Assembly: GCA_018240695.1 (NCBI GenBank)
Contig: JAFEFH010000001.1
Span: 1-64,000, forward strand
From: Pseudomonadota bacterium
GTDB taxonomy: Bacteria; Pseudomonadota; Alphaproteobacteria; Reyranellales; Reyranellaceae
DNA: 64,000 nt
Direction: 5' to 3'
Shown one piece after another: positions 17,797-50,233 of the stretch (its first letter is position 1; the number at the start of each line of letters is the position of its first letter). The notes under the pieces were generated by a model. It was given only the letters and a program-made list of their open reading frames with translations, did no database searches and had not been told where the DNA came from. A program made the translations under genes and the position numbers.

Positions 17797-18257
17797 CAAG
17801 AGCAGGCCTGCGCCTGCCGTGAGATCGCGTAGGCGGCGCGACGATCCGATTGAAGCTGGTGCGGACGGAGGGAATTGAACCCTCACGAGAGTGACCTCCC
17901 TACGGATTTTCATACCACTTCGGCTTTCGCCGCCGCTCCTCGCGTTCGTGGTGGACTAACCGATACTGTGATGAGTGACGGCAAACGCAAAAAAATCCGT
18001 GGATAGACGCGTCCAGAGGCCGGACCGGCTCTATTTCGGCCGCCTGGGCGAGCGGCGTCACGAAGCCGCCCGGTCAGCTAGTTGGGGTGGTGCCTCTTCG
18101 CCATTCGGTGACGATCCTCGCGCAGCTATTTGATCCGAATGTAAGTTTGCCCTTCGAGAACGCGCTTTACCTGAGCCGAGTCAATGGCGCCGGCTTGCTG
18201 TCGTATCGCCTCGATGCCTGTATCGTCACACTGATCTAGGTGAAAGCGACGGTCTCA
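17797..18257. other. 461-bp non-coding stretch containing a tRNA-like remnant
   Basis: Besides the tRNA 3'-end-like segment at 17857-17912, I see no open gene here. A CGGC...GCCG hairpin and an ACCAC/GTGGT pairing lie just to the right of the remnant (17918-17955). The promoter of the helicase gene must be somewhere in the right half. This stretch separates the E1/E2 operon from the kinase-helicase pair and may be the seam of an older insertion. Confidence 0.5.
17857..17912 (-). tRNA. tRNA 3'-end-like remnant (class II type), possible old attachment site
   Basis: On the minus strand this reads as a T-arm (GAGGG-TTCAATT-CCCTC), a 7-base 3' acceptor strand CGTCCGC, discriminator A and CCA, preceded by a variable-arm-like segment and a TGAAAATCC anticodon-loop-like end. 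No 5' half (expected to start GCGGACG) is found within about 150 bp, so it is not an intact tRNA. The break again falls at the anticodon loop, as at 9302. The A discriminator and long variable arm would suit a Leu tRNA, but the anticodon cannot be assigned. Confidence 0.5.
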
Positions 18258-21200
18258 ATGAAAAACAGCAAGTCCACCAAAGCGCACGGACTCGAGGAAC
18301 GCTTCGAGTTTCCGGAGGACGCCCTCGCGCCGGGTAACCGCGAAGCGCTACGTCCTGCGATATTCGAGGTTCGGGAAAGAAGCACCGGTACCGAGCGGAT
18401 GCTGAAACTTTGGCGCAAGACAGCCGGTCCCCTCGACGACGATCTGAGAAATCTCTGGTTGCACGAGATGCGTCAGGTGCAGCGTGTCATGGCGTACGCT
18501 GGTGCCCGGGATGTTGTGGTTGATGTGCTTGAGTTCGTCGAGGACGACGACAATTTTGGCGTCGTGCTCGAGTGCATCGGCCAGCCGCTGGGCGTAAGGC
18601 GGCGGCGAGTGGGCCGCCAGCACTGGTTGCGAAACTTGGCTGGACCCAGGCCTCGCGTGCTCTTCTGGCAGAATCTTCGGCGCATTGTCGCCGCCTTGGG
18701 CATTATACATTCGCAAGGTCTGGTTCACGGCCAGCTGACCACCGATACGATCATGACAGAAGGCAGCGACGAACCCGATTTTCAATTGGGCGGCTTCGAA
18801 TGGAGCCTTTGGCTCAATGCAGGGACCCCCGAGCTAACCCAGGCCAAAGTAGGCGCAGTGGCCGCAGCCCTGAGATCGGAGAGTTATTCCTTCGCTCAGG
18901 ACTGGCATGCGCTCGGGCTTGTTGCACTTGAATGTCTAGACTTGGAGGCTCGGGCCTCCGGCGAAATCCTTCCCCGACGGGGCAGCGAAGTGCCGGTCAA
19001 CCTTCAGGTCGCGGAGCGTGTGCTGCTAAAGCGGCTGATCGCTCCGGCGCGGATGGACCAGTTGGATGCTGACTCGATCATACGAACGATCGATGACCTC
19101 TTGACTAGTGTCGCACGCGCCGTGAGTTCGCCATCGGGCTCCTTTTTGATGAGATTTGACCGGCAATCGAAGCTCGCCGACGTCATCTATGACATTAGCG
19201 CCGGCGAGATAGCTATCGACGAGTATCGGCGGCAGTTGGAGTGGGTCCGGGGCGATTTGGACGGCGGGGCTACGCTTCTCATGCCTAGAGCCGATGGCGA
19301 TATCACCCGCCTAAAACTCGTCACGGCAAACATGATCTACCACTTGCAAGCCTCTCGCGATGAGGGCGCAGCGCTGTGGGATGTCGCCGTGTGCCGGTCC
19401 GTAGAGATACGGAAGGATACATTCAGGATTGGAGAGGCGGAGCCTCATACGTTGATGCAGCCCGTCATCGTGGCTGCAAATGCGCGTGAGGCTCAGGAGA
19501 CACGGGCGCGACTTGGACCGGATTTGCTGGATTGGAGTGCCTATTCGAGTCGTCGTCCAGATCAAGGTGCGGCAGGCGAGGTCGACGCCGTTCGTCGTGC
19601 CTTGCTGTTGGTGCAGATTGTCGAGGCGGTAGTCAAGGCGCTCGAAGTTTATCCTGTGCAGGTGCTTGGTCAGGGCCTCCGGAGCGGCCGGCCGTACGTG
19701 GATGTCCGTGCTGAACCGAACAGCGAGCGGGATCGGATCGCAAAGCGGATCGGCTTGCATTCGGGTGCCAACTCTCTCAGGAGGCTGTTCGAAGAGGAGC
19801 ATCGGGACGCTGAGACGCAGTGGCGACTGAGTGAAGCGCGTAGCCTGGGCGCCTCCCAAATCGGCGATGTAGTGGCAACGTTTGTCGATGTTGTGGAGCA
19901 TCGCGGCCGTCGATCATACCGATTCGAGCTCGACGAGGCCCTCCCGGAGCACCGTCCACTGTTTCTGCGAGCGGCACGCGACACAGGAACCGAACAGGCA
20001 ATCCAGCGCCGGCTACGCAACATCAAGGCGCTCGACACCCGGATCGACCTTGCCGAGATGCTGGCGGACCCTTGGCGCGTGCGTAGGTCCAGCAGGGAGA
20101 GCCTCAGCGAGAAGGAGCGCAAGGACAAAGAGTACCTCGACTTGGATAAGCCGAAACAGGAGGCGCTGGTTAGTCTGTGGTCGACCCTGCCGTCATTCTT
20201 CGTGGTCGGGCCGCCAGGAGTTGGCAAGACGAAGCTCGCGACCGAGGTCGTCCGCAGGCGCTTTTTGAAGGACCGTTCGAGCCGGATGCTGCTGAGCGCG
20301 CAAGGGCACGACGCGCTCGACAATCTTCAGGTCAAGGTCAAAGAGACGCTCACAGTCGCTGGCCTGACAGACGTGCTGGTAGTCCGATCGACAACACCGG
20401 ATCGTCGCAAAGGAAGCGACGAAGAGGTTCATCGCGCCGGGTTCGAATATCTCGACCGGCTTTCGCAAAGCCTCCTGGCGCAAATGGCGCCCGACACGAC
20501 CCGACGTCGGATGGAATCACTCAAGGAAGCAGCGCGCCGGCTGGAGACGTCGAAGGAGAGCGTCAGCCGCGAAGAACGTACGGGCCTCGGCGCCATCTCC
20601 AGCCTGGTGCTCGATGCGGCCAACATCGTAATTTCGACGGCAAATTCGCCGGATGTCGAACGGCTCGTCGAAGCACGCGAGCAGTTCGACTGGGTGATTG
20701 TGGAGGAGGCAGCCAAGGCGATCGGACCGGAGCTGGTAGGTCCTTTGATGCTGTCCGGCCGACGCCTCCTCATTGGTGACCACCATCAGTTACCGCCGTT
20801 CGACTCGGATCGTCTGATTAGAATTCTTCGCGATCACGGTCTCGTCTCGGAGGCAGTAGGCATCGCGGAGGACATGGTTGGGCCTCTCTTCCGGGATGGC
20901 GAACTTGAGGAAATTCAGAAGGTCGCCGCTGATGCTGCGGTGTTCAGGGACCTCTCTGGATTGGCACTGCGTCTGCTTGAGCCATTTCGCTCGGTTGTGG
21001 AGGAGGACGAACGCCGCAAGGATGCGAACTCTGCCCATCGTCCTGTAGCAGCTACCCTTACGGAGCAGCGGCGCATGGACCCAGCCATAGCTGAGGTGGT
21101 GTCGCGGGTCTTTTACCAGAAGAGCCGCCTCACTACCGAATCAGGGCGCGCCATGGCCGCCGAGCGTGGACCGGCCCCAGTTGCGCAACTGGGACCACTT

Positions 21201-21827
21201 CCCAAATCCCCCATCGTCATCGTTGGTTTTCCGCATGTCAGCGCCACAGGGAAACCAGACGCCTTTGAACGGGCACGACCGCGCTGGCACAACCCGTCCG
21301 AGGTAGAGAGCGTTGTCGACACCTTGCGCCTCCTCAGGCCATGTGATTTGGCAAAGCCGCCAACATTGGCAATCCTTTCGCCTTACAATGCCCAGGTCGC
21401 CAAGATTCGCCAGCGCGTGCAATCGCTTCGTTCTGGCCCGCTTTCCCACCTGGACACGTTTGTGCCCGTGCTCAGCAACGGCGACTTCGTTGGCACCGTC
21501 GACGCCTTTCAGGGTAGCGAAGCGGATGTCGTGGTCCTTTCGCTGGTTCGGAACAATCCGATGACCGGTGGACGGGCCCTGGGCTTTCTCCGCGATCGAC
21601 GCCGCATGAATGTCGCGCTCAGCCGTGCGAAGTGGCAGCTAGTCATCGTGGGCAGTCTGGCCTTTCTCGAGGAAGCTGTCAGGGGAGTAAACCCTGGCGA
21701 GGAGACGCACGACCTTTCTTTCCTGACGGACATGGTTACCCTGTTCGAAGAGCTGAAAGGCCGCAAGCGCGGAGACACAATGCTGGCCATCGAGGTGACG
21801 CCAGAGAGTCTCGCGAGGCGATCATGA
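18258..21827 (+). CDS. Pseudokinase-like domain fused to a UPF1-type SF1 helicase
   Basis: This is a 1189-aa protein. The N-terminal 280 residues resemble a Ser/Thr kinase fold: HGQLTTDTI (about 157-165) stands where HRDxKxxN is expected, and the DFG Asp is replaced (LGGFEW), so it is probably inactive. The C-terminal half is a complete superfamily 1 helicase. It has Walker A GPPGVGKT (about 652-659), Walker B VIVEEAA (about 813), GDHHQLPPF, TEQRRMDP, then VDAFQGSEADVV and NVALSRAK. UPF1/Dna2-like helicases translocate on RNA or DNA. The stop overlaps the start of the PLD gene by 4 bp. A GTG start at 18240 is possible, and neither candidate has a strong ribosome-binding site. A two-gene defence system is likely but not identified. 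Confidence 0.85.
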   Translation: MKNSKSTKAHGLEERFEFPEDALAPGNREALRPAIFEVRERSTGTERMLKLWRKTAGPLDDDLRNLWLHEMRQVQRVMAYAGARDVVVDVLEFVEDDDNFGVVLECIGQPLGVRRRRVGRQHWLRNLAGPRPRVLFWQNLRRIVAALGIIHSQGLVHGQLTTDTIMTEGSDEPDFQLGGFEWSLWLNAGTPELTQAKVGAVAAALRSESYSFAQDWHALGLVALECLDLEARASGEILPRRGSEVPVNLQVAERVLLKRLIAPARMDQLDADSIIRTIDDLLTSVARAVSSPSGSFLMRFDRQSKLADVIYDISAGEIAIDEYRRQLEWVRGDLDGGATLLMPRADGDITRLKLVTANMIYHLQASRDEGAALWDVAVCRSVEIRKDTFRIGEAEPHTLMQPVIVAANAREAQETRARLGPDLLDWSAYSSRRPDQGAAGEVDAVRRALLLVQIVEAVVKALEVYPVQVLGQGLRSGRPYVDVRAEPNSERDRIAKRIGLHSGANSLRRLFEEEHRDAETQWRLSEARSLGASQIGDVVATFVDVVEHRGRRSYRFELDEALPEHRPLFLRAARDTGTEQAIQRRLRNIKALDTRIDLAEMLADPWRVRRSSRESLSEKERKDKEYLDLDKPKQEALVSLWSTLPSFFVVGPPGVGKTKLATEVVRRRFLKDRSSRMLLSAQGHDALDNLQVKVKETLTVAGLTDVLVVRSTTPDRRKGSDEEVHRAGFEYLDRLSQSLLAQMAPDTTRRRMESLKEAARRLETSKESVSREERTGLGAISSLVLDAANIVISTANSPDVERLVEAREQFDWVIVEEAAKAIGPELVGPLMLSGRRLLIGDHHQLPPFDSDRLIRILRDHGLVSEAVGIAEDMVGPLFRDGELEEIQKVAADAAVFRDLSGLALRLLEPFRSVVEEDERRKDANSAHRPVAATLTEQRRMDPAIAEVVSRVFYQKSRLTTESGRAMAAERGPAPVAQLGPLPKSPIVIVGFPHVSATGKPDAFERARPRWHNPSEVESVVDTLRLLRPCDLAKPPTLAILSPYNAQVAKIRQRVQSLRSGPLSHLDTFVPVLSNGDFVGTVDAFQGSEADVVVLSLVRNNPMTGGRALGFLRDRRRMNVALSRAKWQLVIVGSLAFLEEAVRGVNPGEETHDLSFLTDMVTLFEELKGRKRGDTMLAIEVTPESLARRS

Positions 21828-23623
21828 GCCTGACAATTGCGATCCCCGTCTTTCGCATCGGCTGCAAGGTAGGTATTGACCGCGGTCGAGCGTGGAGCGT
21901 AGTCGACGAGACCGTTCTGTGGGCAGTGACGCGCCAGTCACGGTCGATCGCATCGCTGGCAAAGGATGCTGACCTGCCTCGCCAGATCGTCACCGCATCG
22001 ATCGCGCGCCTAATGCGGTTCAGGCTAGTGGAGGTGGTAGTTATGGAAGCGGGGGTCGCCTTCCGTGCGAGCCCCTACGGGTTCGACATCATCAGCAGTG
22101 GTGCCGCCTTGCCGTTCTTTCCAAAGCGGATTTCAAGGCCGGTCAGCTTCGTTGTCGAGTGGGCTACCGGCGATTTCTTTCCCACGCGGCAGATCCGGTT
22201 ACTGTCGCCGAACAAGCTGGAGCAGGCACGCCGTGCCGGAAGCGAGGTGCGCGTAATCGCGGTTGAAGGCGGTGGCCCTTCCATGTCGCCGGACGCCAAT
22301 CTGAACCGGCTCTCCGAGATTGCTGCTCGCGGATGGAATGAGCAGGTCGCAGTCATCGACAGCCGGACAGCTACCATGCATGACAATGAATACATGGCGC
22401 TGCGAGTGGTAGACGGGATGGTGCAGGGGCTGCCGGATACCGCCGGTCCTGCATTGCGACGGATGGTCAGCGAAGCCGCAGCTCTTCCGGCGGGAGCGGA
22501 GCGGGTTCCAGTCACATATGCAGGCGTCCAAGAGACGCTTGACCACGAGCCTGCGGCGCATTCGTGCAAATTTGATCCATCCGATATCGTCATCGGGGGA
22601 TCGGCGCAACGAGCCTGTCTAGAGAGCCTGATAGCAAGCGCGCAAAGTCGCGTGATCATCCATTCGACTTTTCTCGACGCAAAACGGTTCGACGTCCTGC
22701 TCGACCTGATCCGGTCGGCATGCCGTCGGGGTGTCCGCTTTGATCTACTCTGGGGTGCGGAAAAGGACGAAGAAACCGAAATTAGGAATGCTGCGGAAGC
22801 GGCAAAGATTGCAGCCTTGATTCGGTCCGATCGCGATCTGGCCGGACGAGTCATAATTCACATGCGGACCACAGGATCGCACGCCAAGTTGATCTTGGTC
22901 GACACTCCGGACGCCGGATGGATCGCGGGCGTGGGATCTTGCAATTGGGTGTCCTCCCCCTTTCAGTCCGTTGAACTTACAGTTGTCCTGCGCGATCAGC
23001 ATGCGGTCGCAGACGTCATGGTGGCTTTTCAGCAAATGGTCGGGCGCCGGGGACTAGCGGATGGAATCGCCAATGAGTTGGGCATTACGGCGCGAGACCT
23101 GCGCCGCATGCCAACGGGCGCAGGCACCGCCAGCGTAACGGTCGTTGTCGGCGACGGTCACGAGAGATTGGCCCGAGCAGCAAGCGGTCAGGCGCGCGCG
23201 CGACTTGTCATAGGTAGCAATAGATTGGGTTCGACTGCCCGGCCAGGCGCGATCATGCCGGGCGAGGTTGCTGCGGAGCGGGCAGGCGTCCGGGCTGTCG
23301 TGCTTTATACGCAAACGACTGGCCCCATAAAGAATCGGCATGGCCGCGCGTTGACAGAAGAGGCGTATGCAAACGGGGTTGTCCTCGCCAGAACTCCCAA
23401 GAAATTGCCGTTACATGGGAAGTTCGTCGCTTGGGACCAGGACGATGTCATCGTAACAAGCCTGAACTGGGCTTCGGCGTCGAGCGATCCGGACTTTCCG
23501 TGGGGCGATATTGGAGTGCATGTTCACGGAACGGGGATTGCATCAAGCGTTCTCGCCCGGCTCGAGATTTTGTTCCCGGAAATTGCGGCTGACGCAGGCG
23601 GACCCGGATACAGGTCGGAATAA
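21824..23623 (+). CDS. Phospholipase D-superfamily protein with two HKD motifs (nuclease-like partner)
   Basis: The protein is 599 aa. The first HKD-like motif is SHAKLILVD followed by GSCNW (about residue 352). The second is LHGKFVAWDQDD followed by TSLNWAS (about 530). These are the two half-sites of a PLD active site. The N-terminal 100 residues contain a winged-helix-like segment (SIASLAKDADLPRQIV). PLD proteins paired with helicases often act as nucleases, as in DISARM DrmC. The gene is coupled to the kinase-helicase by an ATGA overlap, so the two products probably form one complex. Confidence 0.85.
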   Translation: MSLTIAIPVFRIGCKVGIDRGRAWSVVDETVLWAVTRQSRSIASLAKDADLPRQIVTASIARLMRFRLVEVVVMEAGVAFRASPYGFDIISSGAALPFFPKRISRPVSFVVEWATGDFFPTRQIRLLSPNKLEQARRAGSEVRVIAVEGGGPSMSPDANLNRLSEIAARGWNEQVAVIDSRTATMHDNEYMALRVVDGMVQGLPDTAGPALRRMVSEAAALPAGAERVPVTYAGVQETLDHEPAAHSCKFDPSDIVIGGSAQRACLESLIASAQSRVIIHSTFLDAKRFDVLLDLIRSACRRGVRFDLLWGAEKDEETEIRNAAEAAKIAALIRSDRDLAGRVIIHMRTTGSHAKLILVDTPDAGWIAGVGSCNWVSSPFQSVELTVVLRDQHAVADVMVAFQQMVGRRGLADGIANELGITARDLRRMPTGAGTASVTVVVGDGHERLARAASGQARARLVIGSNRLGSTARPGAIMPGEVAAERAGVRAVVLYTQTTGPIKNRHGRALTEEAYANGVVLARTPKKLPLHGKFVAWDQDDVIVTSLNWASASSDPDFPWGDIGVHVHGTGIASSVLARLEILFPEIAADAGGPGYRSE

Positions 23624-23810
23624 CCGGTGATCAGGTAGCGCGCCGCTTCTGTCGCCAGGTGCGCCTCGCGGGCTGGAAATGTCCCGGAGAACATGCTGCT
23701 CGACCCGCGAGGTGACCTTGATGCACGCGATGCAGCTCGACTCCGGTAGGATCAGCTTGGGCCTTCCATTACGCGCTGTAGCCCCACACGATCAAAGTCT
23801 GGAGGAGCTT

Positions 23811-24629
23811 ATGAAACCATCCGTAACTTATAAATATCACTCGCTAGACGACTACCTGCTCTCAAAGCGGCTCGACGTAGATGGCATGCTTGATGATGGA
23901 TGGGGAGCACACTTTCCCGTTAAGGCACGAGAGATTGACGCTGCTGTGCTATTCGCCGACATCTGCTCGTTTTCCGCGCGCACCAAAGATTTGTCTCCAA
24001 TCGAAACTCTTATCTTCCTGAATAATTTTCTCGCTTGGATAAGTGCAGAAGCGTTACGAGATGGAACGCTCATCGTCGATAAATATATCGGAGATGAAAT
24101 CATGCTTGTCTTCTCAAAGGAATTTGGCTCGCTAGATCCCTTTGTCGACGCCTTGCGGGTGGGGCGAGCCATGCTCGATCGCGATGCGCTTGGGTTTGCG
24201 CCAAGGATCGGAATAGCCATGGGCCGCGTTGCCGTCGGCTACGTCGGTACACCTCTTCGCTACAATTGCACCGTGCTGGGGGCGCCCGTTGTCGTCGCAA
24301 AGCGCTGTTGCGGCATTGGAGAGGAGCCATTCTCGTCGATTACATTCCCTGCCGAGTTGTGGGCCCAGCACCAACTCGAGGAGGTCTTCCCAAGGCGAAA
24401 GCGTCAGGCACGCGACGGAACAATTTTCGAGGAGCCATTGAACTGGCAACTCGGCGATTCGCGTGTGACAGCCTTGAAGAATATTGGTGAACGCCAAGTA
24501 AGGACACTCTTCACCAACCTCGTTCATTTTTCACAATACGCGCCCGAAGACCGGGCTCGGGATGGGCTGACTCATCTAAAAAGAGAGGGCAGCTATCACT
24601 ACGCGCGTTATTCTTATGAAGCCGAATAA
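23811..24629 (+). CDS. Class III nucleotide cyclase
   Basis: The protein is 272 aa with one catalytic domain. Metal Asp50 lies in FADICSF and D95 in KYIGDE, and the base-contacting Lys of the VxKxxGD motif is retained (K91). In the segment that normally reads YTVxGxxVNxAxR, here about TVLGAPVVVAKR, the transition-state Asn is replaced by Val and only the Arg remains. I chose ATG 23811 because GGAGGAG sits just upstream; the frame opens earlier at 23679 without support. Free-standing class III cyclases make cCMP or cUMP in Pycsar defence or cAMP in ordinary signalling. No PycTM or PycTIR effector is adjacent. No regulatory domain is visible. Confidence 0.8.
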   Translation: MKPSVTYKYHSLDDYLLSKRLDVDGMLDDGWGAHFPVKAREIDAAVLFADICSFSARTKDLSPIETLIFLNNFLAWISAEALRDGTLIVDKYIGDEIMLVFSKEFGSLDPFVDALRVGRAMLDRDALGFAPRIGIAMGRVAVGYVGTPLRYNCTVLGAPVVVAKRCCGIGEEPFSSITFPAELWAQHQLEEVFPRRKRQARDGTIFEEPLNWQLGDSRVTALKNIGERQVRTLFTNLVHFSQYAPEDRARDGLTHLKREGSYHYARYSYEAE

Positions 24630-24725: not shown

Positions 24726-27700
24726 TCAGATGTCCCATTTCGCTCTTTGTTCATCATCGTGACTACGGGCTTCTTTAATATGATGTTCCATATCTGCCAG
24801 CATCTTCTTGGCCCATCGCCGGACTTCGCCGGTGGGGTGCTTTTCGAGAGACATCAGGGGAGCTTGATAGCGCACGTAATACGTCGCGAGTGAACCCATC
24901 CAGCCGAAGGTGTGCATGTTCTGCTCGATCTTCCGAAGGACGTCTTCGCGATCACCGAACTCGTCCAAGAGGCGGCGCGTCAAGGAATGAAATTCTTGCG
25001 GACCTTCGGTCGAGGCGTCGGGAGTGAGGACCGGAGCTACGCCCGCTAAAAAGGCAGGGCCGACGTCGGGATGGGCGTGGCACCAGGCAAAGAGGACGTC
25101 CTCCGGCAGACTGAGAATGGGCGGCACTTTCTTATCCCCGAAGGAATACGGGTCGCCGAGGGCGCTCTCCATGCGCCAGGATTTCAGCCTGTCTTCTGAG
25201 CCGATCGCTTCGCTCAAGATAGGCCAAACTACGCCCGAGAATTCGGACAAGAGCTTGGGCAGAAGCGGCTTTATCAGGTCCTTCATGTCGCGATCCGGAT
25301 CGGCCGCCAGATGCTTGGCAAGTGTTAGGGCGACTGACCTGGCGTCGGAATCTTCCCATCCCTTCTTGAGCATCCAACCGATCAGCACCTTGAAGTGATG
25401 GGCGTCCATCTGGGAGCCGCCCTTCCTTTCACGGCGATTGAGATTGACCGCGGCCAGCTTGAGCTGCGGGCGAAGCCCCTCGATCTTGTCCCGTGCGCCG
25501 TGGACGTACATGCCCATAAGGTCAAGGGCAACGGAGTACGCATCACCATCCATGGACAGCATTTGGTCGAATAGCGGGCTAACTGAATCAGTGGGCAATT
25601 TCGCGAGAACGCCGCCCGTGGTCCAATTTGCGAGCGTGCTGGGCGGCAGGACGCCGTCGCGCAACCCTGCTCTTACAAGCTGCACGTCCTCGTCGGTAAT
25701 CCCAATACTCGCGGTCGCCATAACGAGCACTGGCGCGAATACCTTGGATGCCATCGCTTCCTTTTTGAACTGCTCGACCACGCCTGGATGCTTTGCGGCA
25801 AGGCCCGTCAGATAGCCGACAAGCACACCATAGTTTCTCTGGCCCTCCGGCGCAGCGACCACGGCGGATTTGATCGGTGTCAACCAATCGAGCGGCGTCG
25901 ACGAATGAGCGGCAATAAATTGGCCGAATTCATAGACCATGCGATGGTCGCCGGTGCTCAATTGAGGGAGCAGGCGAACGATGAGCTCCGGCTCCTTGAG
26001 CAGATCGTGCGTCAGCTGCTCGACGGCGGCAATTTGATCATTTCTGGCCTTCTCGAAGTCGTGCTCTTCGTCGAGCAGGTAGTCCCACGGCATATCGGTC
26101 AGCAGGAACTTGGCCCGCGTTGGCAGATCGTTGGGCGTGAGTTTGTCGATAAGCTTTTGCACGCGCTCGGGCACACCGTCGCCAAGATCCTTCTTTTCGA
26201 ATTGCAGCACGTCGGCGAGGCTATCCAGCGCTTCCGGCCAATAGGGATAAACGGCCGAGATGGCCTCGATCCATTGTTCAGCATTGTCAATGAGGCCATG
26301 GGAGACCAGCGAGCGCAGCCCTTGGCCGATGCCCTTTCGCGCCCGCGTTCCGACGTCGTCGTCTCGTTGGGCGAGGGTGACGAGTCGCTCGGCACAGGCG
26401 ATGATGTAGTCAGAGACATCTTTCCAGGTATTCGGTTGCCAAGGCTGCAGGGCGGGACGGCTACCCTGGATTTCGGGGCCGACGCTTCTCGAAAAGCTAT
26501 GGGTCCTTGCTCCTTCCAGGAGCGCGTCTACCACCAGAGGCATTTCCGCGCCGTCATTCCTGCGAATCAGATCATCGAGCAGGCGCAAGCGGGCGTCGCC
26601 GTCGGCCTCGGTATTTCCAAGAAAGACCGGAAAGATCGCCTTGAATTCGCCCGTGGCGTTGTTGGCCCAGTCTTCGTTCTCCGCCAAGGCAAGCTTGAGA
26701 AGGAGTAGGCCGCCTTGTTCGAATCCCTCGTTTGTAAATGCAATTTTTTCCAGCGCCCAAACAAGATTGCGCCGCAGATCGCCGCCTATTTGCCTTGTCT
26801 CCTCGTGCGACAACTGGCCCACGACCCGTTCGATCAGCATGACGACGGATGCCGCGTCGATCTCCGCAAGGGACGAGAGAATTTCGGCGTTTCCGCCCGC
26901 GCGTAGGGCATCAAGTGAAGCGAAGGGTCCATTTAGGCGACAGACGAATTTCGCAACGTCCTTTGCGATCTGCCTGTCATTCAGAACGGCCAACTGCTCG
27001 GCGAGCCTCGTCCGCAGATGCTTCGGTAGTTTACCGGCAAGGATGTCGTCCCATCGTGCGTCGCCCCATTGCCGCCATTGCCGTTCGGCCAATCGCAGAG
27101 CGATGGGGCGAGGTTGCAGGACCAGAAGACGGCCGCGTGTCTGGGCGACGCCGCGCCCCGACAGATCTTCGAGCGCCGCATAAATCTCCGGCGCCGTTCG
27201 ATGTCGCGCCAAATGGGTTACATCTTCGACGTCGGTCGTCGGCGACTTCGTTCCGAGTAGGCCGAAAGCGCCAAGAAGCATGCCGGCGTCCAGCAATATT
27301 TGGCGATCGAAGAGACTTCTTCCCACAAGGACCCGCTCGACCAGATCATCGTCGCTGACGGTCGCGATCGAGCCGTCCTTTAACCAAGCCTGACCGATGA
27401 GGACCGCCATTTTGGGGTAGCCGGACGCAAACTTAAGCAAACGACTTTGATCGTCGCTCGGAAGATCCGGAGCCACTTGCTTGAGGAGTCCTTCGACAAC
27501 TTCGGGAGGCGCTAGATCGACCTGCAATGTGCCGGACGGCAGCGTGCCTGCCGGCAATTCCGGATCGATCGTTACCAGGGACAAGCGACTGCTCGTCCGT
27601 TTGACCATCGCCGCAAGGTCCTGGTGCGTCTCCGTGGTGCACTGGTCGACGACGACGATTGCTCGAACCGAGCTGTCGGCCAGGCTCTGAACGACCGACT

Positions 27701-28796
27701 TGATATTGACCGTGCCCGCTTCGGGTTCCGAACTGTAAAGGACGAGGTCGCTCAATAGGAGACCGGAAATTTCCTCGTCGTCGGTCGGCCGAAAAGCTTC
27801 GAGCGCCAAGCGGGATTTTCCGGTGCCTGAAAGACCAACGATCCTGGCGACGCCGCGCGCCGGTTCGATCAGCTTGTGAAGCTCGCTACGGAAGGACTCG
27901 AGGCGGCTGTCGGGCACGAAGGTAAATCCGTCGTGTTCGGAGCGACCAGCCCAATGCGACCAGTCGCGCATGGGGCCGGCCAACCCGGGCTGAGTTTGTT
28001 CTAGAACCCAAGTCGCGACGGCCGGGTTGGAGTTGACCCAGTGAGCTATTTGCGAGGCGTCGCGAAATTGGACGCGGCTAGCCTCGACGGTCAGTCCGTA
28101 GAGTGAGAGAGCTTTGAGGACTGCGGTTGTGCGCTTTTGGATTTCTTGGCGCGTATAGGGACGCGAGCACAGCACGACATAGGCGCCATCCGCTGCCAAG
28201 GCGGAGCGCACCATGGGTTTGAGATCGCCGTCCTTGGTGACTATTTCTTTGCCCGCTTGTCCCGGGCCGATCTTGGTTGCCTTCAATTGAAATTGGGTCA
28301 AACGCGCTGGGAGAAAGGGCGTGCGTTCCGGTCCACCTTTCCATTCGATGCGGGCGTCTTCGCCGCCGTCCGGGGCGTTAATGTTTGTGGCGACATGGAT
28401 GCCGTCCATCGGCAGGTCATGCGTCTTCGCTTCGGCGGCAAGCAAGCGGCGTGTGAGGACGGCGAGTTTGCGGTCGCTGAGCGCTGCGATGTGGTCGCTG
28501 GTGACTTCGAACGGTTTGGCGTTATCGTTCTCGATCGGCACCATGTCAGGCCCGGCGAGGGTCTTGAGCGCCGATGGATTGGCGTCTAGCAGTCGCAGAA
28601 GATTGGCGACGGACGCTGCCGGTTTGATCGTGCCGCTCTCGTATTTAGTAAAGGCGCGAGGGCCTCCGCCGAGGAGCTCACCGGCCTCGACTTGTGATAA
28701 GCCCAAGCGCTCCCGGATGCGCCGAATGTCATCTGGCGTGAATTCAGGAGGAGCTAGCTCGATTTCGGGTTGTTTCTTAACCATTTTGGCCATCAT
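24726..28796 (-). CDS. HTH-nuclease-STAND NTPase fusion, Avs-like defence protein
   Basis: This is a 1356-aa protein. Residues 22-75 are an Xre/MqsA-type helix-turn-helix (LGLSQVEAGELLGGG, KYESGTIKP). Residues 130-250 look like a PD-(D/E)xK/Mrr-type nuclease, with D147 in GGEDARIEW and Q170-L-K172 in FQLKAT. Residues 310-530 are a STAND-type P-loop NTPase, with Walker A GLSGTGKS (321-328) and a Walker B-like VVVDQ at D384. The remaining 800 residues are alpha-helical repeat-like sequence, the usual sensor part. This order resembles Avs/bNACHT proteins, which detect phage proteins and activate an N-terminal nuclease. The extra N-terminal DNA-binding domain is unusual. It is divergent from the Fic gene over a tandem-repeat region. 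Confidence 0.85.
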   Translation of the reverse strand: MMAKMVKKQPEIELAPPEFTPDDIRRIRERLGLSQVEAGELLGGGPRAFTKYESGTIKPAASVANLLRLLDANPSALKTLAGPDMVPIENDNAKPFEVTSDHIAALSDRKLAVLTRRLLAAEAKTHDLPMDGIHVATNINAPDGGEDARIEWKGGPERTPFLPARLTQFQLKATKIGPGQAGKEIVTKDGDLKPMVRSALAADGAYVVLCSRPYTRQEIQKRTTAVLKALSLYGLTVEASRVQFRDASQIAHWVNSNPAVATWVLEQTQPGLAGPMRDWSHWAGRSEHDGFTFVPDSRLESFRSELHKLIEPARGVARIVGLSGTGKSRLALEAFRPTDDEEISGLLLSDLVLYSSEPEAGTVNIKSVVQSLADSSVRAIVVVDQCTTETHQDLAAMVKRTSSRLSLVTIDPELPAGTLPSGTLQVDLAPPEVVEGLLKQVAPDLPSDDQSRLLKFASGYPKMAVLIGQAWLKDGSIATVSDDDLVERVLVGRSLFDRQILLDAGMLLGAFGLLGTKSPTTDVEDVTHLARHRTAPEIYAALEDLSGRGVAQTRGRLLVLQPRPIALRLAERQWRQWGDARWDDILAGKLPKHLRTRLAEQLAVLNDRQIAKDVAKFVCRLNGPFASLDALRAGGNAEILSSLAEIDAASVVMLIERVVGQLSHEETRQIGGDLRRNLVWALEKIAFTNEGFEQGGLLLLKLALAENEDWANNATGEFKAIFPVFLGNTEADGDARLRLLDDLIRRNDGAEMPLVVDALLEGARTHSFSRSVGPEIQGSRPALQPWQPNTWKDVSDYIIACAERLVTLAQRDDDVGTRARKGIGQGLRSLVSHGLIDNAEQWIEAISAVYPYWPEALDSLADVLQFEKKDLGDGVPERVQKLIDKLTPNDLPTRAKFLLTDMPWDYLLDEEHDFEKARNDQIAAVEQLTHDLLKEPELIVRLLPQLSTGDHRMVYEFGQFIAAHSSTPLDWLTPIKSAVVAAPEGQRNYGVLVGYLTGLAAKHPGVVEQFKKEAMASKVFAPVLVMATASIGITDEDVQLVRAGLRDGVLPPSTLANWTTGGVLAKLPTDSVSPLFDQMLSMDGDAYSVALDLMGMYVHGARDKIEGLRPQLKLAAVNLNRRERKGGSQMDAHHFKVLIGWMLKKGWEDSDARSVALTLAKHLAADPDRDMKDLIKPLLPKLLSEFSGVVWPILSEAIGSEDRLKSWRMESALGDPYSFGDKKVPPILSLPEDVLFAWCHAHPDVGPAFLAGVAPVLTPDASTEGPQEFHSLTRRLLDEFGDREDVLRKIEQNMHTFGWMGSLATYYVRYQAPLMSLEKHPTGEVRRWAKKMLADMEHHIKEARSHDDEQRAKWDI

Positions 28797-29018
28797 TTAG
28801 TTAAATGTACCACAATGGTCACATGATGTCTCTATGGAGGTTTTTCAAGCTCTGTCTCTGGCGGCACCAATTCTTCTGAAAAATATCAGTATTTATTGAT
28901 TTTTACAGAATGTACGCCTATTGCCACAACATCTTAAACGCCTATTGCCACAACATAATAAACGCCTACACCCACAGCATAAAATACGCCTACTTCAGAG
29001 AAGCTTGATCAACCCCAA
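28797..29018. promoter_or_regulatory. AT-rich divergent promoter region with 24-bp repeats
   Basis: This 222-bp gap lies between the STAND protein gene (minus) and the Fic gene (plus). It is much more AT-rich than the surrounding DNA, for example 28878-28913. It contains four tandem 24-bp units on the Fic side. Both promoters must lie here. The HTH domain of the STAND protein is a natural candidate to bind the repeats. Confidence 0.6.
28914..28998 (+). repeat. Four tandem 24-bp repeats (iteron- or operator-like)
   Basis: Units begin at 28914, 28938, 28962 and 28986, an exact 24-bp period. Each starts ACGCCTA. The first two share ACGCCTATTGCCACAACAT, the third has ACACCCACAGCAT, and the fourth is only the first part. 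The 24-bp spacing is close to two helical turns, so bound proteins would sit on nearly the same face of the DNA. They end about 20 bp before the Fic start codon. Confidence 0.85.
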
Positions 29019-30824
29019 ATGCCAACTCCTAATGAGAAGCTCGCCGAAGCGCTGACCGCCCTCCAAGAGCTGCAAAAGGAGGGGCGGCGCGTATTCCGCA
29101 CAAGCGAGCTCAGCCGTATGCACCGCGAACGGCTGATGAGAAATGCCTTTGTCCAAGAGGTCATCAAAGGATGGCTGATCTCTTCAAGTCCGAACGCGCG
29201 CGATGGCGACAGTACGCCTTGGTATGCATCCTTCTGGGAATTTTGCGCTCGCTACTGTGACGACCGTTTTGGAGACCAATGGCACCTCTCGCCGGAGCAA
29301 TCGTTGCTGCTGCATGCCGAGAACACTGTCATCCCGCCCCAAGTCATCGTCTATAGCCCCAAGGGCGCGCGCAATAACACCAAGCTTCTCTTCGGTACGT
29401 CGATTTACGACGTTGTCCAACGAATGCCCCCGCCGGCTGATCTCACCATCCGCGACGGACTGCGCCTGTTCACACCGGAAGCGGCCCTGGTGAAGGTTCC
29501 GGAGACATTCTTCCAGCAGCATCCGATTGAAGCCCAGGTTGTCCTGTCCTCGATCAGGGACGCGTCCGACATCTTGCGGCGGGTGCTCGACGGGGGGAAT
29601 TCCTATGTCGCAGGCAGGCTCGCAGGAGCTCTCCGACGCATGGGCCGTGCCGAGATCGCAGATGAGATCGCGACGACGATGAAGGCGGCTGAATATCCCA
29701 TTCGAGAATCCGATCCCTTCAATGCGCAACAAGTGTTTGGCACCTATCGCGGCACAACGGCCCCCATCGTGTCGCGGATCGAAGCGCTTTGGAAAGCAGC
29801 GCGCGATCCGGTGATCGCGGCCTTTCCGAAAGCGCCCGGTCTCCCGAGGAACAAAGACGAGTACATGCGCTTTGTGGAGGAAATCTACAAAAGCGACGCG
29901 TATCACTCGCTCTCCATCGAAGGCTATAGCGTGACGCCCGAATTGATCGAGCGTGTCCGCTCCGGCAATTGGGACCCCGACATCCACGACAGCGATCGAA
30001 AAAACCGCGATGCGTTGGCGGCTCGAGGGTATTGGCAGGCCTTCGAGGCGGTAAAGGCAAACGTCGCCCAAATTGTGAACGGCACGGAACCAGGCGGGTT
30101 GGTTCGCGTCAGCCATCGCCGCTGGTATCGAGAATTATTTACGCCCTGTGTCACCGCCGGTCTGATTTCTGCGAGTGCGCTCGCGGGCTACCGAAACGAC
30201 GCCGTCTATCTCAGAACCTCTCGCTATGTGCCGCCGAGATGGGAAGCCGTACGCGATGCTATGCCGGCGCTGTTCGATCTCATTGAAGGCGAGAAGGAGG
30301 CAAGTGTTCGCGCAGTGCTGGGTCACTGGCTCATCGGCTACATCCACCCTTACCCGGACGGCAATGGCCGCATGGCCCGCTTTCTCATGAATGCAATGCT
30401 CGCCTCCGGCGGATATCCTTGGACGGTTGTCCGGGTCGAAGATCGAGTTGCCTATCTGCAAGCGCTCGATCGGGCGAGCATCGACGCGGATATCGGACCT
30501 TTTGCGACGTTTCTCGCTGAGCGTGTGCAATGGTCGATGGAGGCCAGAGCACAGGGTGAGATAGCGGACCGGCGTTTCGAGGTCGGCGATCTCGTGAGGC
30601 TCCGGCCGAATTCCCGAGTTGGATTCGGCTATCAACCCAATATTCGCGCCGATGAAATTGGCGAAGTCTATGCGGTCGAGCCCCATCCGCCGCAGACGGG
30701 GCCAACCTATCGGATTTGGGTCAGATTTCCGGGCGAACGAGTCGTCCAGGGTACGTTCGCCTTTGAATATGTGCTCGTGAAGGCAGCAGAAAAACCTCGG
30801 GACGATTCTTCTTTGCAGCCTTAG
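29019..30824 (+). CDS. Fic-domain protein (AMPylase family) with N- and C-terminal extensions
   Basis: This 601-aa protein carries the full Fic motif HPYPDGNGRMAR at about residue 442 (consensus HPFxxGNGRxxR), which supports an active nucleotidyltransferase. An inhibitory helix motif of the S/TxxxE(G/N) type, SLSIEG, occurs about 145 residues earlier in the same chain, so the enzyme is probably self-inhibited. The first 250 residues include helical and winged-helix-like sequence, and the last 90 form a small beta-rich domain. Fic enzymes usually AMPylate protein targets and act as toxins or signalling enzymes. It is divergent from the STAND gene over the 24-bp repeats. Confidence 0.9.
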   Translation: MPTPNEKLAEALTALQELQKEGRRVFRTSELSRMHRERLMRNAFVQEVIKGWLISSSPNARDGDSTPWYASFWEFCARYCDDRFGDQWHLSPEQSLLLHAENTVIPPQVIVYSPKGARNNTKLLFGTSIYDVVQRMPPPADLTIRDGLRLFTPEAALVKVPETFFQQHPIEAQVVLSSIRDASDILRRVLDGGNSYVAGRLAGALRRMGRAEIADEIATTMKAAEYPIRESDPFNAQQVFGTYRGTTAPIVSRIEALWKAARDPVIAAFPKAPGLPRNKDEYMRFVEEIYKSDAYHSLSIEGYSVTPELIERVRSGNWDPDIHDSDRKNRDALAARGYWQAFEAVKANVAQIVNGTEPGGLVRVSHRRWYRELFTPCVTAGLISASALAGYRNDAVYLRTSRYVPPRWEAVRDAMPALFDLIEGEKEASVRAVLGHWLIGYIHPYPDGNGRMARFLMNAMLASGGYPWTVVRVEDRVAYLQALDRASIDADIGPFATFLAERVQWSMEARAQGEIADRRFEVGDLVRLRPNSRVGFGYQPNIRADEIGEVYAVEPHPPQTGPTYRIWVRFPGERVVQGTFAFEYVLVKAAEKPRDDSSLQP

Positions 30825-35990: not shown

Positions 35991-36361
35991 GCGAGCGCTC
36001 CGAGCGCGAGCCGGATGAGCCGCTTGAGCATGTGCTGTTTCTGGCAGTGACCCGGCCAGCCTTATTTTTGGGCATGCCCATGGAAGCAGCGGCATTCTGC
36101 CTGATCGGCGGCCAGCTTATGGCGCTGGCGATGGGCAGCATGATTTACATGCCGCTCGCAGCGGGCTCGCTCGGGCTGATTTCCTCGGCCCTGTCACGTT
36201 ACGACCCTCTGATTTTTCGGGTGCTGCTGTCGTGGGGGAACTCACGGCCGCAGAACCCCGACTTGGGACGCGCGGCGCGGCATTGGTGGGGAGGACTCAG
36301 CATGAGTCCTCTCCGTCCCCTGTGTCATTACAAGCCGTCGGAGCTCGGGCGCAATGTCTGA
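35987..36361 (+). CDS. virB3: VirB3-like inner-membrane protein
   Basis: This 124-aa protein uses a GTG start that overlaps the virB2 stop (GTGA). The pattern LFLAVTRPALFLGMPM followed by a hydrophobic pair of helices (about 35-75) and YDPLIFRVLL is typical of VirB3, a small subunit that works with VirB4. The C-terminal 30 residues are polar, and the gene overlaps virB4 by 8 bp. Confidence 0.88.
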   Translation: MSERSEREPDEPLEHVLFLAVTRPALFLGMPMEAAAFCLIGGQLMALAMGSMIYMPLAAGSLGLISSALSRYDPLIFRVLLSWGNSRPQNPDLGRAARHWWGGLSMSPLRPLCHYKPSELGRNV

Positions 36362-38786
36362 CAACTGGACCTGGCGCGAGCGCATATGTAGGAGTGAACT
36401 CGAGATTGAGCGCTTCGTGCCGTATGTGCGCCACCTCGATGAGCGCACGATCGCGCTCGAAAGTGGCGCACTCCTCCGCATGTGGCGCGTCCGCGGACTC
36501 TCGGCGGAGTCTTTGGACCAGCTGGTCATCAATCGTATGGCCATCGCGCACAACCATGCGCTGAGATCCATGGCGCACGAACGCGCTGCGCTATGGACAC
36601 ACCTCGTACGGCTGAATCAGACCGCGATGCCTGTGCGCGAGACCGCCGTTAGTGCGTTCGTTGACGAACTGCTGGGCCAGTACGAGGCAGCACTAGCCGG
36701 CGAAAGACTCTATGCCAACGCGCTCTATGTGAGCCTGGTGATCAACCCGAAGCCGCTTCGCTTGGGTGCCCTCCCGGCAATGATTACGGGCCGAGCGAAG
36801 ACGCAGGCGATCGATCCTGCCGACGTTGAGCTACTGGAGGACCTTAGCACCCGGCTTGAAGCGCTGTTGCGACCCTATGGGGTGAAGGTACTCGAAGTCG
36901 TGGAACGGAATGAGGCGCTCTTCAGCGAGCCAGCCGCGGCTCTGCGGTCGATTCTCGCTGGAGTCGAGGAACCCGTGGCACTCGTCGAAGGTGATCTGGG
37001 GCGGTCGCTGATGACGTTTCGCCCGATCTTCGGTCGCGAAGCAATCGAGATCCGCGAAGCGAATGCACGACGGTTCGTGGGCATGGTGAGCGTTGGCGAG
37101 TATCCCGCGCGTACGCGCCTTGGCATGCTCGATCGGCTGGCATCGGCTCCCTTCCAACTGGTGCTGACGCAAAGCTTTCGCTTCCTGCCGCGGGCCGTTT
37201 CGCGAGAGTTATTCGGTCGCCGGCAGAACCAAATGGCGAGCGCCGGCGATCGCGCGATCACGCAGGCGGGGTTGCTGTCGGAGGCAGCAGACGAGCTGGA
37301 GAGTGGCACTTTCTGCGTCGGTCAGCACCATTTGACGTTAGCCGTCGTCGAGGATGAGCCGAAGCGGCTCCCGATGACTGTCGCAATGGCCCGCCGGCTG
37401 CTGTCGGATGCCGGCATCGTGGCGGCGCGAGAGGATTTGTCGCTTATCCAGAGCTGGTTCGCCCAGCTGCCGGGCAACTTCAAGCACCGCGTGCGGCGGG
37501 CGGAAGGCATAACGAGCCAGAACTTTGCGTCGCTGTCGCCGCATCACAGTTTCCCCAGTGGCCGCGAAAGTGGCGTCCATTGGGGCGCGCCGATTGCTTA
37601 TTTTCGGACGAGTGCGGCCTCGCGGTACGCCTTTAATTTTCACGTTCGCGACGTCGGGCATACGCTGATCCTGGGCGCGACTGGCGCTGGCAAGTCGGTA
37701 CTACTGAACTTCTCATTGTCTGGTGCACTGCGGCTCGGTGCGTCCGTGGTGTTGTTCGACAAGGACCGCGGCGCCGAAGTCTTCGTGGGCGTTAACGGCG
37801 GCAAATATTTGTCGCTGCGCCTTGGACGGCCGACCGGTGCCGCGCCCTTTAAGGCGATGGAGACTTATACAGACCGCTACCGCTCGTTCCTGGCAACCTT
37901 GGTACAGCGCTTGGTGCAAGAACCGACCGCGCCCCTGTTGGCGGCCGACAAGGTGGGTATCGAACAGGCGATCCGGTCAGTCGAACGACTGCCGCGTACG
38001 GCACGTGGCCTCGAGACCGTCGCCGCCAATCTGAGCAGTGTCGGCGAGAGCTCGATCAGTCGTCGGTTGCAGCGGTGGTGCCACGGTGGCGAACTCGGCT
38101 GGGTGCTTGATTGCGAGGACGACGTTCTGCCCTTCGAATTCGGCAGTGATGCGTCACTGGTCGGGTTCGATCTTAGTCAGATCCTGCGCGCAGACGAGGC
38201 ACGCGAGCCGCTATTGATGTACTTCTTCGAGCGCCTGGACGCGATGGTCGACGGTCGCCGTCTGGTCTGGGCGGTCGAAGAATTTCACGCCGCCTTGAAC
38301 GATCCGCTGGTCCGCCGCCAGGTCGACGATGCGTTGCGCGTTTGGCGCCGCCGCAATGGAATGGCGATTCTGGTCAGCCAGAATCCGGGCGACGCCATCC
38401 GCTCACAGATCGGCGAGACGTTGGTTCAGCAGACACCGACCAAGATCTATCTCCCCAATCCTTCCGCCCGGAAGGAAGACTATGTCGGCAAGCTCAATTG
38501 TCTGGAGCGCGAATACGAGCTGATCCAAGGACTCGGCATCACGAGTCGCAAGTTTCTGGTGTGCCAACGCGACCCCGATGCTGCCGCCGACGACATGGGC
38601 GCGGCGCTGACAGGGGGGCTGGCGGCGTCGGTGCTGTGTGATCTTGACCTGGGCGCCCATGGGAAATTCCTGCGGGCTTTGTCGCCGCAGGCCGAACGTG
38701 GCGACTTTGTTCGGTGGGATCGGGTACGTGCCGAAGGCGGAGACGGTGGCGCGTTGTGGCGACGTTTTTGTGGTGAACCGACCTAG
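36354..38786 (+). CDS. virB4: VirB4 ATPase of the type IV secretion system
   Basis: This 810-aa protein is the usual VirB4 length. It has an N-terminal CagE/TrbE domain, Walker A GATGAGKS near residue 443, a Walker B region VWAVEEFHAAL near 645 and the RRRNGMAILVSQNP motif that follows. VirB4 powers pilus assembly and substrate transfer at the inner membrane. It is embedded in the virB operon and shows no damage. Confidence 0.95.
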   Translation: MSDNWTWRERICRSELEIERFVPYVRHLDERTIALESGALLRMWRVRGLSAESLDQLVINRMAIAHNHALRSMAHERAALWTHLVRLNQTAMPVRETAVSAFVDELLGQYEAALAGERLYANALYVSLVINPKPLRLGALPAMITGRAKTQAIDPADVELLEDLSTRLEALLRPYGVKVLEVVERNEALFSEPAAALRSILAGVEEPVALVEGDLGRSLMTFRPIFGREAIEIREANARRFVGMVSVGEYPARTRLGMLDRLASAPFQLVLTQSFRFLPRAVSRELFGRRQNQMASAGDRAITQAGLLSEAADELESGTFCVGQHHLTLAVVEDEPKRLPMTVAMARRLLSDAGIVAAREDLSLIQSWFAQLPGNFKHRVRRAEGITSQNFASLSPHHSFPSGRESGVHWGAPIAYFRTSAASRYAFNFHVRDVGHTLILGATGAGKSVLLNFSLSGALRLGASVVLFDKDRGAEVFVGVNGGKYLSLRLGRPTGAAPFKAMETYTDRYRSFLATLVQRLVQEPTAPLLAADKVGIEQAIRSVERLPRTARGLETVAANLSSVGESSISRRLQRWCHGGELGWVLDCEDDVLPFEFGSDASLVGFDLSQILRADEAREPLLMYFFERLDAMVDGRRLVWAVEEFHAALNDPLVRRQVDDALRVWRRRNGMAILVSQNPGDAIRSQIGETLVQQTPTKIYLPNPSARKEDYVGKLNCLEREYELIQGLGITSRKFLVCQRDPDAAADDMGAALTGGLAASVLCDLDLGAHGKFLRALSPQAERGDFVRWDRVRAEGGDGGALWRRFCGEPT

Positions 38787-49500: not shown

Positions 49501-50231
49501 ATCGACAGCATGTCGGGGACGATAAAGCGCCGTTGCAGACCGTTCCCGGCCGGGCCTTTCTTCGGTTGCGGTCCAATGTCGATGCCACGGTCGCGGTAAC
49601 TGCGCGGGTCGAGGCGCGCTTCCTGGCCGGCCCGCTCGAGCGCCCGGTTGGCCAGTTGTGCCCACTCCTCGCGGAGATTGCGGATTTCTGCCGCCCTCCG
49701 GAGCAGCCCCAGCGCTTTGCGCTTGTCCTCGTTGTGCTCGAGGGCGCTCCGCTCACCCATGCCTTGGGCGCTAATTCGACGCGTCGTCATCAGCAAATGG
49801 GCATGGTGGTTGCGCTGGTCGCCGGCTTTGCTGGGAGGATGGATCGCGTAGTCCACGGCAACGTCATAGCGGTCGGCCAGCATTTGCGCGTATTGGGTCG
49901 TGAGCGCCCGCCGCTGGACGCGGTCCAGTTCGGCGGGGAGTGCCAAGAGGATCTCCGTTGCGACCCGCGAATCCTTGCGACGCTCGGCCCGCTCGGCGGC
50001 GTTCCAGAGCTGACCGCGGTCGAGGGCCCACGTCGCCGCCACGCCTTGCGGCAGGAGAATGCCGGTCTCTGCCGGATCGATCTCGCCCGAACGGACGCGC
50101 CGGGAGTAGTCATGACGCTTGCCTGTCGCCTCGTTGGTGAGTGCCGTGCCGCTGCGATAGGCGGCCGCTGCAATCGACGAGCGCCCTTTGCCGCGGCTGA
50201 TCGCCTGCAACGCAAAATGGCAGACGGCCAT
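46569..50231 (-). CDS. traA: Ti-type TraA relaxase with MobA/MobL and RecD-like helicase domains
   Basis: This is a 1220-aa protein. The N-terminal 250 residues are a MobA/MobL relaxase: CHFALQAISRGKGRSSIAAAAYRSG, then the metal-binding His cluster NHHAHLL. The middle is a RecD/TrwC-like helicase with Walker A GVAGAGKS, VIDEAGMID, GDPEQLPAIG, then LTVHKTQGATLDRVY and LYVAMSRHR. It nicks oriT and unwinds the strand to be transferred. The C-terminal 150 residues form a separate domain also found in the small protein at 59415. The ATG at 50231 starts directly before the relaxase motif. A HTH gene lies 2 bp upstream. Confidence 0.94.
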   Translation of the reverse strand: MAVCHFALQAISRGKGRSSIAAAAYRSGTALTNEATGKRHDYSRRVRSGEIDPAETGILLPQGVAATWALDRGQLWNAAERAERRKDSRVATEILLALPAELDRVQRRALTTQYAQMLADRYDVAVDYAIHPPSKAGDQRNHHAHLLMTTRRISAQGMGERSALEHNEDKRKALGLLRRAAEIRNLREEWAQLANRALERAGQEARLDPRSYRDRGIDIGPQPKKGPAGNGLQRRFIVPDMLSISPQTQAVNAELIRAHPEQLLRLLGDSQSVFTRQEIAQTLDRYVADHAQFQICLAAVMACPELLALPSRRERQTLTLPEGRTVDLPAKYTLKSTADLEWKLLADALALASTRTLGPQTNRGLTAQTLAIAVATLAERDGIELSPSQRSALDHVTGPESLSAIVGVAGAGKSTLLKAARLGWEREGFRVFGAATAGKAAQGLGQSSGIRSTTIASLILSWDKGAARLISRDVLVIDEAGMIDSKTMARLVHEVRLAGAKIVLVGDPEQLPAIGAGAPFRALIERVEPVRLLEVRRQSLEWQRAATVAFAQSRTADALQAYSAESRIRLEADPVARAIELFLESYTRPGTQAALAHTNSDVTALNDGIRSGLKRIGVLVGGQGGVYQTRAGAREFLSGDRITLLRNARLRSADGRGLLEVRNGQLGNVVRADHGALTVKIDDGGMVQVSLGEYPDVDHGYALTVHKTQGATLDRVYALESAGMDRNLLYVAMSRHRQDCLLIADKASHKDVDGLIRSLARRHNVKEMTLDYEGPGLAPAERAWVAAEAERRRSPELEQLRILHATADYEARRETFGRSSTEIAALAARYRPPPLAGVLAADATLLDLDRQLAEARGGSTPPEILTRLGTARERRERQVTAEYDQRWRADTLRVAALVRHEAAAIVHERQASAAMPTLLRYEGRPSPTFNRAEWALASDTLIRTRDRHRAYRTLCDVLARRRPAPADFARDMRTEIAGLQQQSLAVVDTSPPPRPHRERQLLVPPPFVRSTLIGRHSPPRTPQEYDAAAERFSTSDQFRAMPAGAPYYRDIGARAKGLLQDRRPRARERQAAALPDTPQHRAFASRGYASFGTTGQVSIGTRMVATVEALQIAAPHLSATSEAGRAAKAVFALIGRYNEGRATNGELDQAIKDMIFATPPATHQRRTGHPVRGREREADPWAKATAAARELLTTVHDLDLQLDLDRRVRGTSRTGRSLDR

Positions 50232-50233
50232 GG

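Follow-up and report, generated by a model that had tools for sequence, protein, structure and literature searches.

The window analysed here (the whole 64,000-nt stretch of contig JAFEFH010000001.1, from a Reyranellaceae bacterium) includes a gene for a 1356-residue protein composed, in order, of a helix-turn-helix (HTH), a putative PD-(D/E)xK nuclease, a STAND nucleoside triphosphatase (NTPase) and a helical solenoid. An 11-bp palindrome in front of the start codon is a candidate operator for the protein's own HTH. The open reading frame (ORF) begins with ATG and has exactly the coordinates given in a first-pass annotation made from the letters alone. The arrangement described there, an MqsA/Xre-type HTH ahead of a putative nuclease and a STAND NTPase, is borne out by profiles, alignments and a structure model. 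The features of the gene are as follows.

24726..28796, minus strand: HTH-nuclease-STAND gene, a PD-Lambda-4_A homologue with an N-terminal MqsA-type HTH (1356-aa ORF, ATG start)
28563..28739, minus strand: MqsA-type HTH, aa 20-78, with recognition segment AFTKYE at aa 48-53
27972..28511, minus strand: putative PD-(D/E)xK (Mrr-like) nuclease, about aa 96-275, with invariant D143, D147, Q170 and K172
27027..27929, minus strand: STAND NTPase (NB-ARC-like) and arm domains, about aa 290-590, with Walker A K327 and Walker B D384
24729..27026, minus strand: C-terminal helical (HEAT/TPR-like) solenoid, presumed sensor, aa 591-1356 (from the model)
28809..28819: candidate autoregulatory operator, ACCANNNTGGT as written in the window, at -23 to -13 from the start codon (ACCATTGTGGT in gene orientation)

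Domain architecture of the HTH-STAND protein

The PADLOC profile PD-Lambda-4_A (PDLC03991) matches residues 96-1350 at 2.2e-90 and is covered from position 4 to 1278 of 1283. The protein had been called Avs-like, and this holds for its architecture; by family it is a full-length PD-Lambda-4_A homologue. No Avs profile appeared in the PADLOC search, in which PD-Lambda-4_A profiles alone were listed at E values up to 1. The partner profile PD-Lambda-4_B (PDLC03992) had 0 matches in the same genome (93.8% complete), and the gene is thus filed as a PD-Lambda-4_A-like single gene rather than as a complete PD-Lambda-4 system. Our preferred reading is an anti-phage effector of the PD-Lambda-4_A kind that consists of one gene. 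In the alignment, the relatives share the order of nuclease-like, NTPase and helical regions.

By profile and alignment, residues 20-78 correspond to the DNA-binding half of MqsA, its C-terminal part. They match PF15731 (MqsA_antitoxin) at 7e-14, over profile positions 70-128 of 131, NCBIfam TIGR03830 at 3.8e-18, which exceeds its cut-off, and PF13560 at 7.9e-7; for the MqsA assignment both curated cut-offs are exceeded. The solved E. coli MqsA (3fmy, 2kz8, 3gn5/3o9x) aligns without gaps, residues 19-78 of our protein to 69-128 of MqsA (phmmer). The zinc- and toxin-binding N-terminal half of MqsA is missing, the profile match starting only at 70. K51 aligns with MqsA residue 101; Asn97 and Arg101 of MqsA are presumably the base-contacting residues. 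Searches of the same genome found no second HTH of the MqsA type.

Across 21 aligned relatives, the columns of D143, G144, D147, Q170 and K172 in the nuclease region are invariant, as are R318, G321, G324, G326, K327 and R329 in Walker A, D384 and C386 in Walker B and the GLPL-like G459. Residue 327, named earlier as a glycine to be mutated, is a lysine. The structure prediction suggested at the same time was run with AlphaFold2 on residues 1-590 (predicted local distance difference test (pLDDT) 76.5, lower in the HTH part) and comprises five HTH helices, then an alpha/beta domain, then the NTPase. D147 precedes one predicted strand (148-151) and Q170-x-K172 lies on the next (166-172), so that a D...QxK motif sits on core strands, as in PD-(D/E)xK enzymes, with a fitting beta-alpha layout. 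Profile searches, on which the first-pass annotation had staked both N-terminal domains, matched the HTH and gave no convincing named Pfam or PDB sequence profile for the nuclease: 0 Pfam families for the window protein, DUF4365 at 0.0027 in 1 of 20, and a portal protein as best PDB match (0.0025). Among the structure matches of the whole model, whose rows the NTPase fills, no nuclease chain was conspicuous either, which is no argument against a nuclease. The label 'Mrr-like nuclease' thus stands on an invariant motif and a predicted layout and lacks a named profile, and we keep the PD-(D/E)xK identity as putative.

The next region is, by its Walker A and B motifs and modelled NB-ARC-like fold, a STAND NTPase. 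The NTPase model superposes on 8bv0 (Z 12.0, root mean square deviation (r.m.s.d.) 5.4, 269 residues aligned), on Apaf-1 3shf (Z 11.2, r.m.s.d. 5.5, 280 aligned) and on 6mfv (Z 10.6, r.m.s.d. 6.2, 257 aligned); the structures matched are NB-ARC, Apaf-1, a STAND protein and Avs3. A model from residue 290 onwards (mean pLDDT 81) ends in an all-helical solenoid of the kind expected of a repeat sensor. Avs4 and Avs3 are within its first five Foldseek matches. Many HEAT-repeat proteins match as well, and the resemblance to Avs is therefore one of common plan, not of family.

The candidate operator and its fit to the HTH

In gene orientation, the stretch before the start codon reads GTG-ACCATTGTGGT-ACATTTAACTAA-ATG. 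The pattern within it, ACCA-N3-TGGT, has one match in the 64-kb window, at 28809-28819, and when the 222-nt intergenic region is modelled as a first-order Markov chain, 0.4% of draws contain it. E. coli MqsA is described as a repressor acting at AACCT-N3-AGGTT (PMC4894380); the half-site layout of the candidate operator equals that of the E. coli site, with one base changed. All three MqsA-HTH fusions that were found have the pattern upstream: the window protein at -23, G058 at -45 and G781 at -35 and -6. The latter two keep the AFxKYE recognition helix. By contrast, the pattern occurs within 200 nt upstream of 0 of the 44 PD-Lambda-4_A relatives that have no DNA-binding domain.

The relation between helix and site extends to free MqsA-type proteins. 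We collected 52 loci of free HTHs matched by the window HTH and searched 900 nt upstream of each, with regard to strand. The AFxKYE class, into which the window segment AFTKYE falls and which includes one SFQKYE, has ACCA-N3-TGGT in 14 of 25 loci and ACCT-N3-AGGT in 3. For AFSRYE helices the counts are 0 and 6 of 21; unrelated HTHs have ACCA-N3-TGGT in 0 of 6. Within the AFxKYE class, ACCA ranks 1st of the 256 N3 half-sites (14 loci; the next has 8), and a spacer of 3 nt occurs in 14 loci, against 0-2 for any other length. Most ACCA sites lie about 530-570 nt ahead of the HTH, which by analogy is where a preceding mqsR-type gene would have its promoter; in the known system the toxin gene stands ahead of mqsA (PMC4803016). 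Examples are L012 and L013 for ACCA, and L024 and L085 for ACCT. These counts suggest a simple, though not strict, specificity code in the MqsA family, AFxKYE for ACCA and AFSRYE for ACCT.

DNA-binding domains among the relatives

A tree was built from the PD-Lambda-4_A rows in which the N terminus could be read, 50 in all and 49 of them different, drawn from the window, 13 genomes, 16 plasmids (16 of 96 matching records) and 20 viral contigs. Similarity to the window protein and to its relatives was the basis for finding them, so the sampling is not random. Left out were L008, L040 and L149 (N terminus cut or missing), L172-L188 except L176 (contigs same as L135-L154) and L151 (motif not located by the script); L136/L138 and L146/L154 are identical or nearly so and were kept, each pair not counting as independent. 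An N-terminal DNA-binding domain is present in 5 of the 50 rows. The three MqsA-HTH fusions form one clade with a support of 100/100.

The fourth fusion, from an IMG/VR contig (L150:4720-8780, plus strand), joins LexA_DNA_bind (4.6e-13) to PD-Lambda-4_A (6.3e-295). At -37 it has GAACATTTGTTC, a perfect LexA (SOS-type) box and the sole match in 13.8 kb; this sequence is given as a form of the B. subtilis SOS box (PMC4234289). The fifth, in G601 (L090:6787-12653, plus strand, 1573 aa), begins with HTH_3 (6.5e-9) and a further stretch, followed by PD-Lambda-4_A (8e-193). Its start overlaps the stop codon of hipA (ATGA; HipA_C 3.4e-42), and from this position the immune nuclease seems to occupy a HipB-like seat beside hipA. 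The tree needs three label changes, of which well-supported branches force two, and it carries a long-branch warning. That the three DNA-binding domains come from different families argues by itself for three captures.

No close relatives were found in viral contigs, searched with the plain protein and with the HTH alone; a single phage record gave a match, confined to the HTH portion. A separate arrangement was seen on the Rhizobium leguminosarum plasmid pPR4 (L134:4813-8931, minus strand), where the gene immediately upstream of a plain PD-Lambda-4_A gene encodes a 1372-aa protein. This protein has an N-terminal HTH_3 (3.7e-8) and no visible Walker A, and it is remotely PD-Lambda-4_A-like (hhalign probability 95.8, 6.7e-9, HTH columns included); a dedicated regulator or a paralogue pair is possible. 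In L123 a gene annotated likewise stands upstream (the L134 protein alone was searched).

Proposed autoregulation, alternatives and known systems

We propose that the HTH represses its own gene through the ACCA-N3-TGGT site, and give this a probability of about 0.7. The domain make-up, the conserved catalytic and NTPase residues, the position of the site, the match of helix to site and the parallel LexA case are computed observations; from these we infer binding, repression, release, nuclease activity and phage defence. At rest, by analogy with MqsA, an HTH dimer would bind the site before the gene and hold a potentially self-harmful nuclease at a low level. The HTH domain of MqsA dimerises (PMC4803016) and MqsA represses, hence the dimeric binding and repression envisaged here. 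Recognition of a phage product would lead the STAND module, as in Avs and other STAND proteins, to bind ATP, oligomerise and arm the nuclease, and the shift from dimer to higher oligomer would plausibly free the promoter and bring a burst of new protein. The broader picture, in which repressor domains (MqsA HTH, LexA, HipB-like HTH) have been captured repeatedly, at least twice with an operator in front, and the full feed-forward model applies, we regard as tentative, at somewhat worse than even odds.

Several points weigh against autorepression at this site. The palindrome came from visual inspection of the window and of G058 and was tested afterwards, and a scan for sigma-70-type promoters around it found none. 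The AlphaFold2 model has low confidence in the HTH (pLDDT about 57-70 over aa 21-70). The N-terminal domain of MqsA, absent here, is reported to touch DNA as well (PMC4803016). Neither tested site lies upstream of the G601 fusion, whose operon would begin before hipA. The association of helix and site in free loci (Fisher p 1.9e-5) is optimistic because related loci are not independent, and the helix-to-site rule is not strict, given the AFxKYE loci with ACCT-N3-AGGT (L019, L065, L076) and with hybrid sites (L002, L053, L077, L086).

The alternatives concern partly the HTH itself and partly the intergenic region, which it shares with a second gene:

28914..28985, plus strand: three 24-bp tandem repeats, with a partial fourth by eye, adjoining the Fic gene
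29019..30824, plus strand: divergent Fic/DOC-domain gene, 601 aa (ORF and Pfam)

The HTH could be a targeting module that brings the nuclease to invading DNA, its own-promoter site being secondary. It does adjoin the nuclease, and DNA-binding domains are described as effectors in other NTP-dependent conflict systems (PMC7159879). However, 45 of the 50 tree rows are devoid of any HTH, which is thus dispensable for the core function, and all three MqsA-HTH fusions found, like the LexA fusion, have a cognate site at the start of their own gene, so that we hold this role to be distinctly improbable. If the HTH were a frozen leftover from an MqsRA operon, with no present function, the missing toxin-binding half of MqsA would be accounted for, and a fusion by local rearrangement is plausible. 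Yet the HTH is kept with the core in three members from two families, 50-73% identical to the window protein over the aligned length, the AFxKYE helix is retained and the site retained or even doubled; a remnant is very improbable.

The first-pass annotation had the HTH silence its own promoter through the 24-bp repeats. Self-silencing has gained comparative evidence; the repeats have not stood as its target, ACCATTGTGGT at 28809-28819 fitting the HTH instead. The repeats exist and occupy part of the intergenic region that both genes share, about 118-190 nt from the HTH-STAND start, but they contain no ACCA/TGGT site, end about 30 nt ahead of the Fic start and are local: the genome has these three copies and, at another place, one match with 1 mismatch. 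They are also absent upstream of both other fusions: none was found in the G781 locus (up to 5 mismatches in 19), and G058 has a single 5-mismatch match, at L034 position 7272, inside a neighbouring coding region. We rejected them as the HTH operator and give that reading almost no credence.

The repeats may instead serve the Fic gene, which could be self-regulated through them; they were not found near the Fic relatives in G802, G775 and, for a partial relative, G005. The Fic protein has a weak AbiEi-like match ahead of its Fic domain (PADLOC AbiEi 1.5e-4, aa 91-168). Fic proteins can be toxic, and the two genes diverge across a 222-nt gap, so the HTH might control both potentially toxic defence genes as one switch. 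This is unlikely: the translated flanks of G781 and G058 show no Fic relative, G781 has no Fic match in the family search, and the best two Fic relatives (G802, G775) are in genomes for which that search gave no HTH-STAND match; a conserved pairing was thus not seen. Autorepression at the ACCA-N3-TGGT site remains the reading that we favour.

The wider surroundings contain further defence and transfer genes:

18240-21827 and 21632-23623, plus strand: Mokosh type I pair (PADLOC MkoA 9.1e-245, MkoB 4.5e-91)
23679-24629, plus strand: 316-aa ORF with a nucleotide-cyclase domain (PF00211 1e-4; PADLOC PycC 7.6e-11, partial profile)
36354-38786, plus strand: VirB4/TrbE-type ATPase
46569-50363, minus strand: MobA/MobL relaxase-helicase

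The nearby Mokosh pair places the HTH-STAND gene in a defence island, and the VirB4/TrbE-type ATPase and MobA/MobL relaxase indicate that the island probably lies within a conjugative or integrative element. The ORF right after Mokosh possibly encodes a Pycsar-like cyclase; no effector was identified for it.

The find bears on how cells hold suicidal or self-toxic immune effectors in check and yet fast; the known cases met in this analysis use separate regulators. In the window protein, sensor, effector and repressor would be parts of a single chain served by a candidate operator of 11 bp. Immune activation and gene induction may then be one molecular event, a one-protein feed-forward alarm, and the LexA version would couple its defence gene to the SOS response of the host.

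PD systems were found by functional selection (Vassallo et al. 2022, PMC9519451), and a review table places PD-Lambda-4 under P-loop NTPases (PMC10952713). The window protein resembles PD-Lambda-4 in its full-length profile match (aa 96-1350) and domain order, but adds an MqsA HTH and a candidate operator in a genome without a PD-Lambda-4_B match. With Avs (AVAST) it shares the plan of effector, STAND module and helical sensor, Avs3 and Avs4 being among the model matches, but it has an HTH ahead of the effector and no PADLOC Avs match. With MqsA it shares the HTH and an operator of ACC-N5-GGT layout, whereas the zinc- and toxin-binding half is absent, no mqsR is seen beside it and the HTH is fused to an immune effector. 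The regulatory parallel is CdxB, an XRE-type repressor of 132 aa reported to hold down the toxic CARD-NLR-like LypABC (PMC13236601). XRE-type repression of a toxic NLR-like system is common to both, but CdxB is a separate protein and the window repressor domain lies inside the NLR-like protein itself. CapK/CapS is described as another case of a separate regulator (PMC13373217). In the literature searched (titles and abstract starts of open-licence PMC papers) there was no fused repressor with an operator before its own gene. Separate repressors of NLR-like systems are thus known; what would be new is a PD-Lambda-4_A immune protein with a built-in autorepressor.

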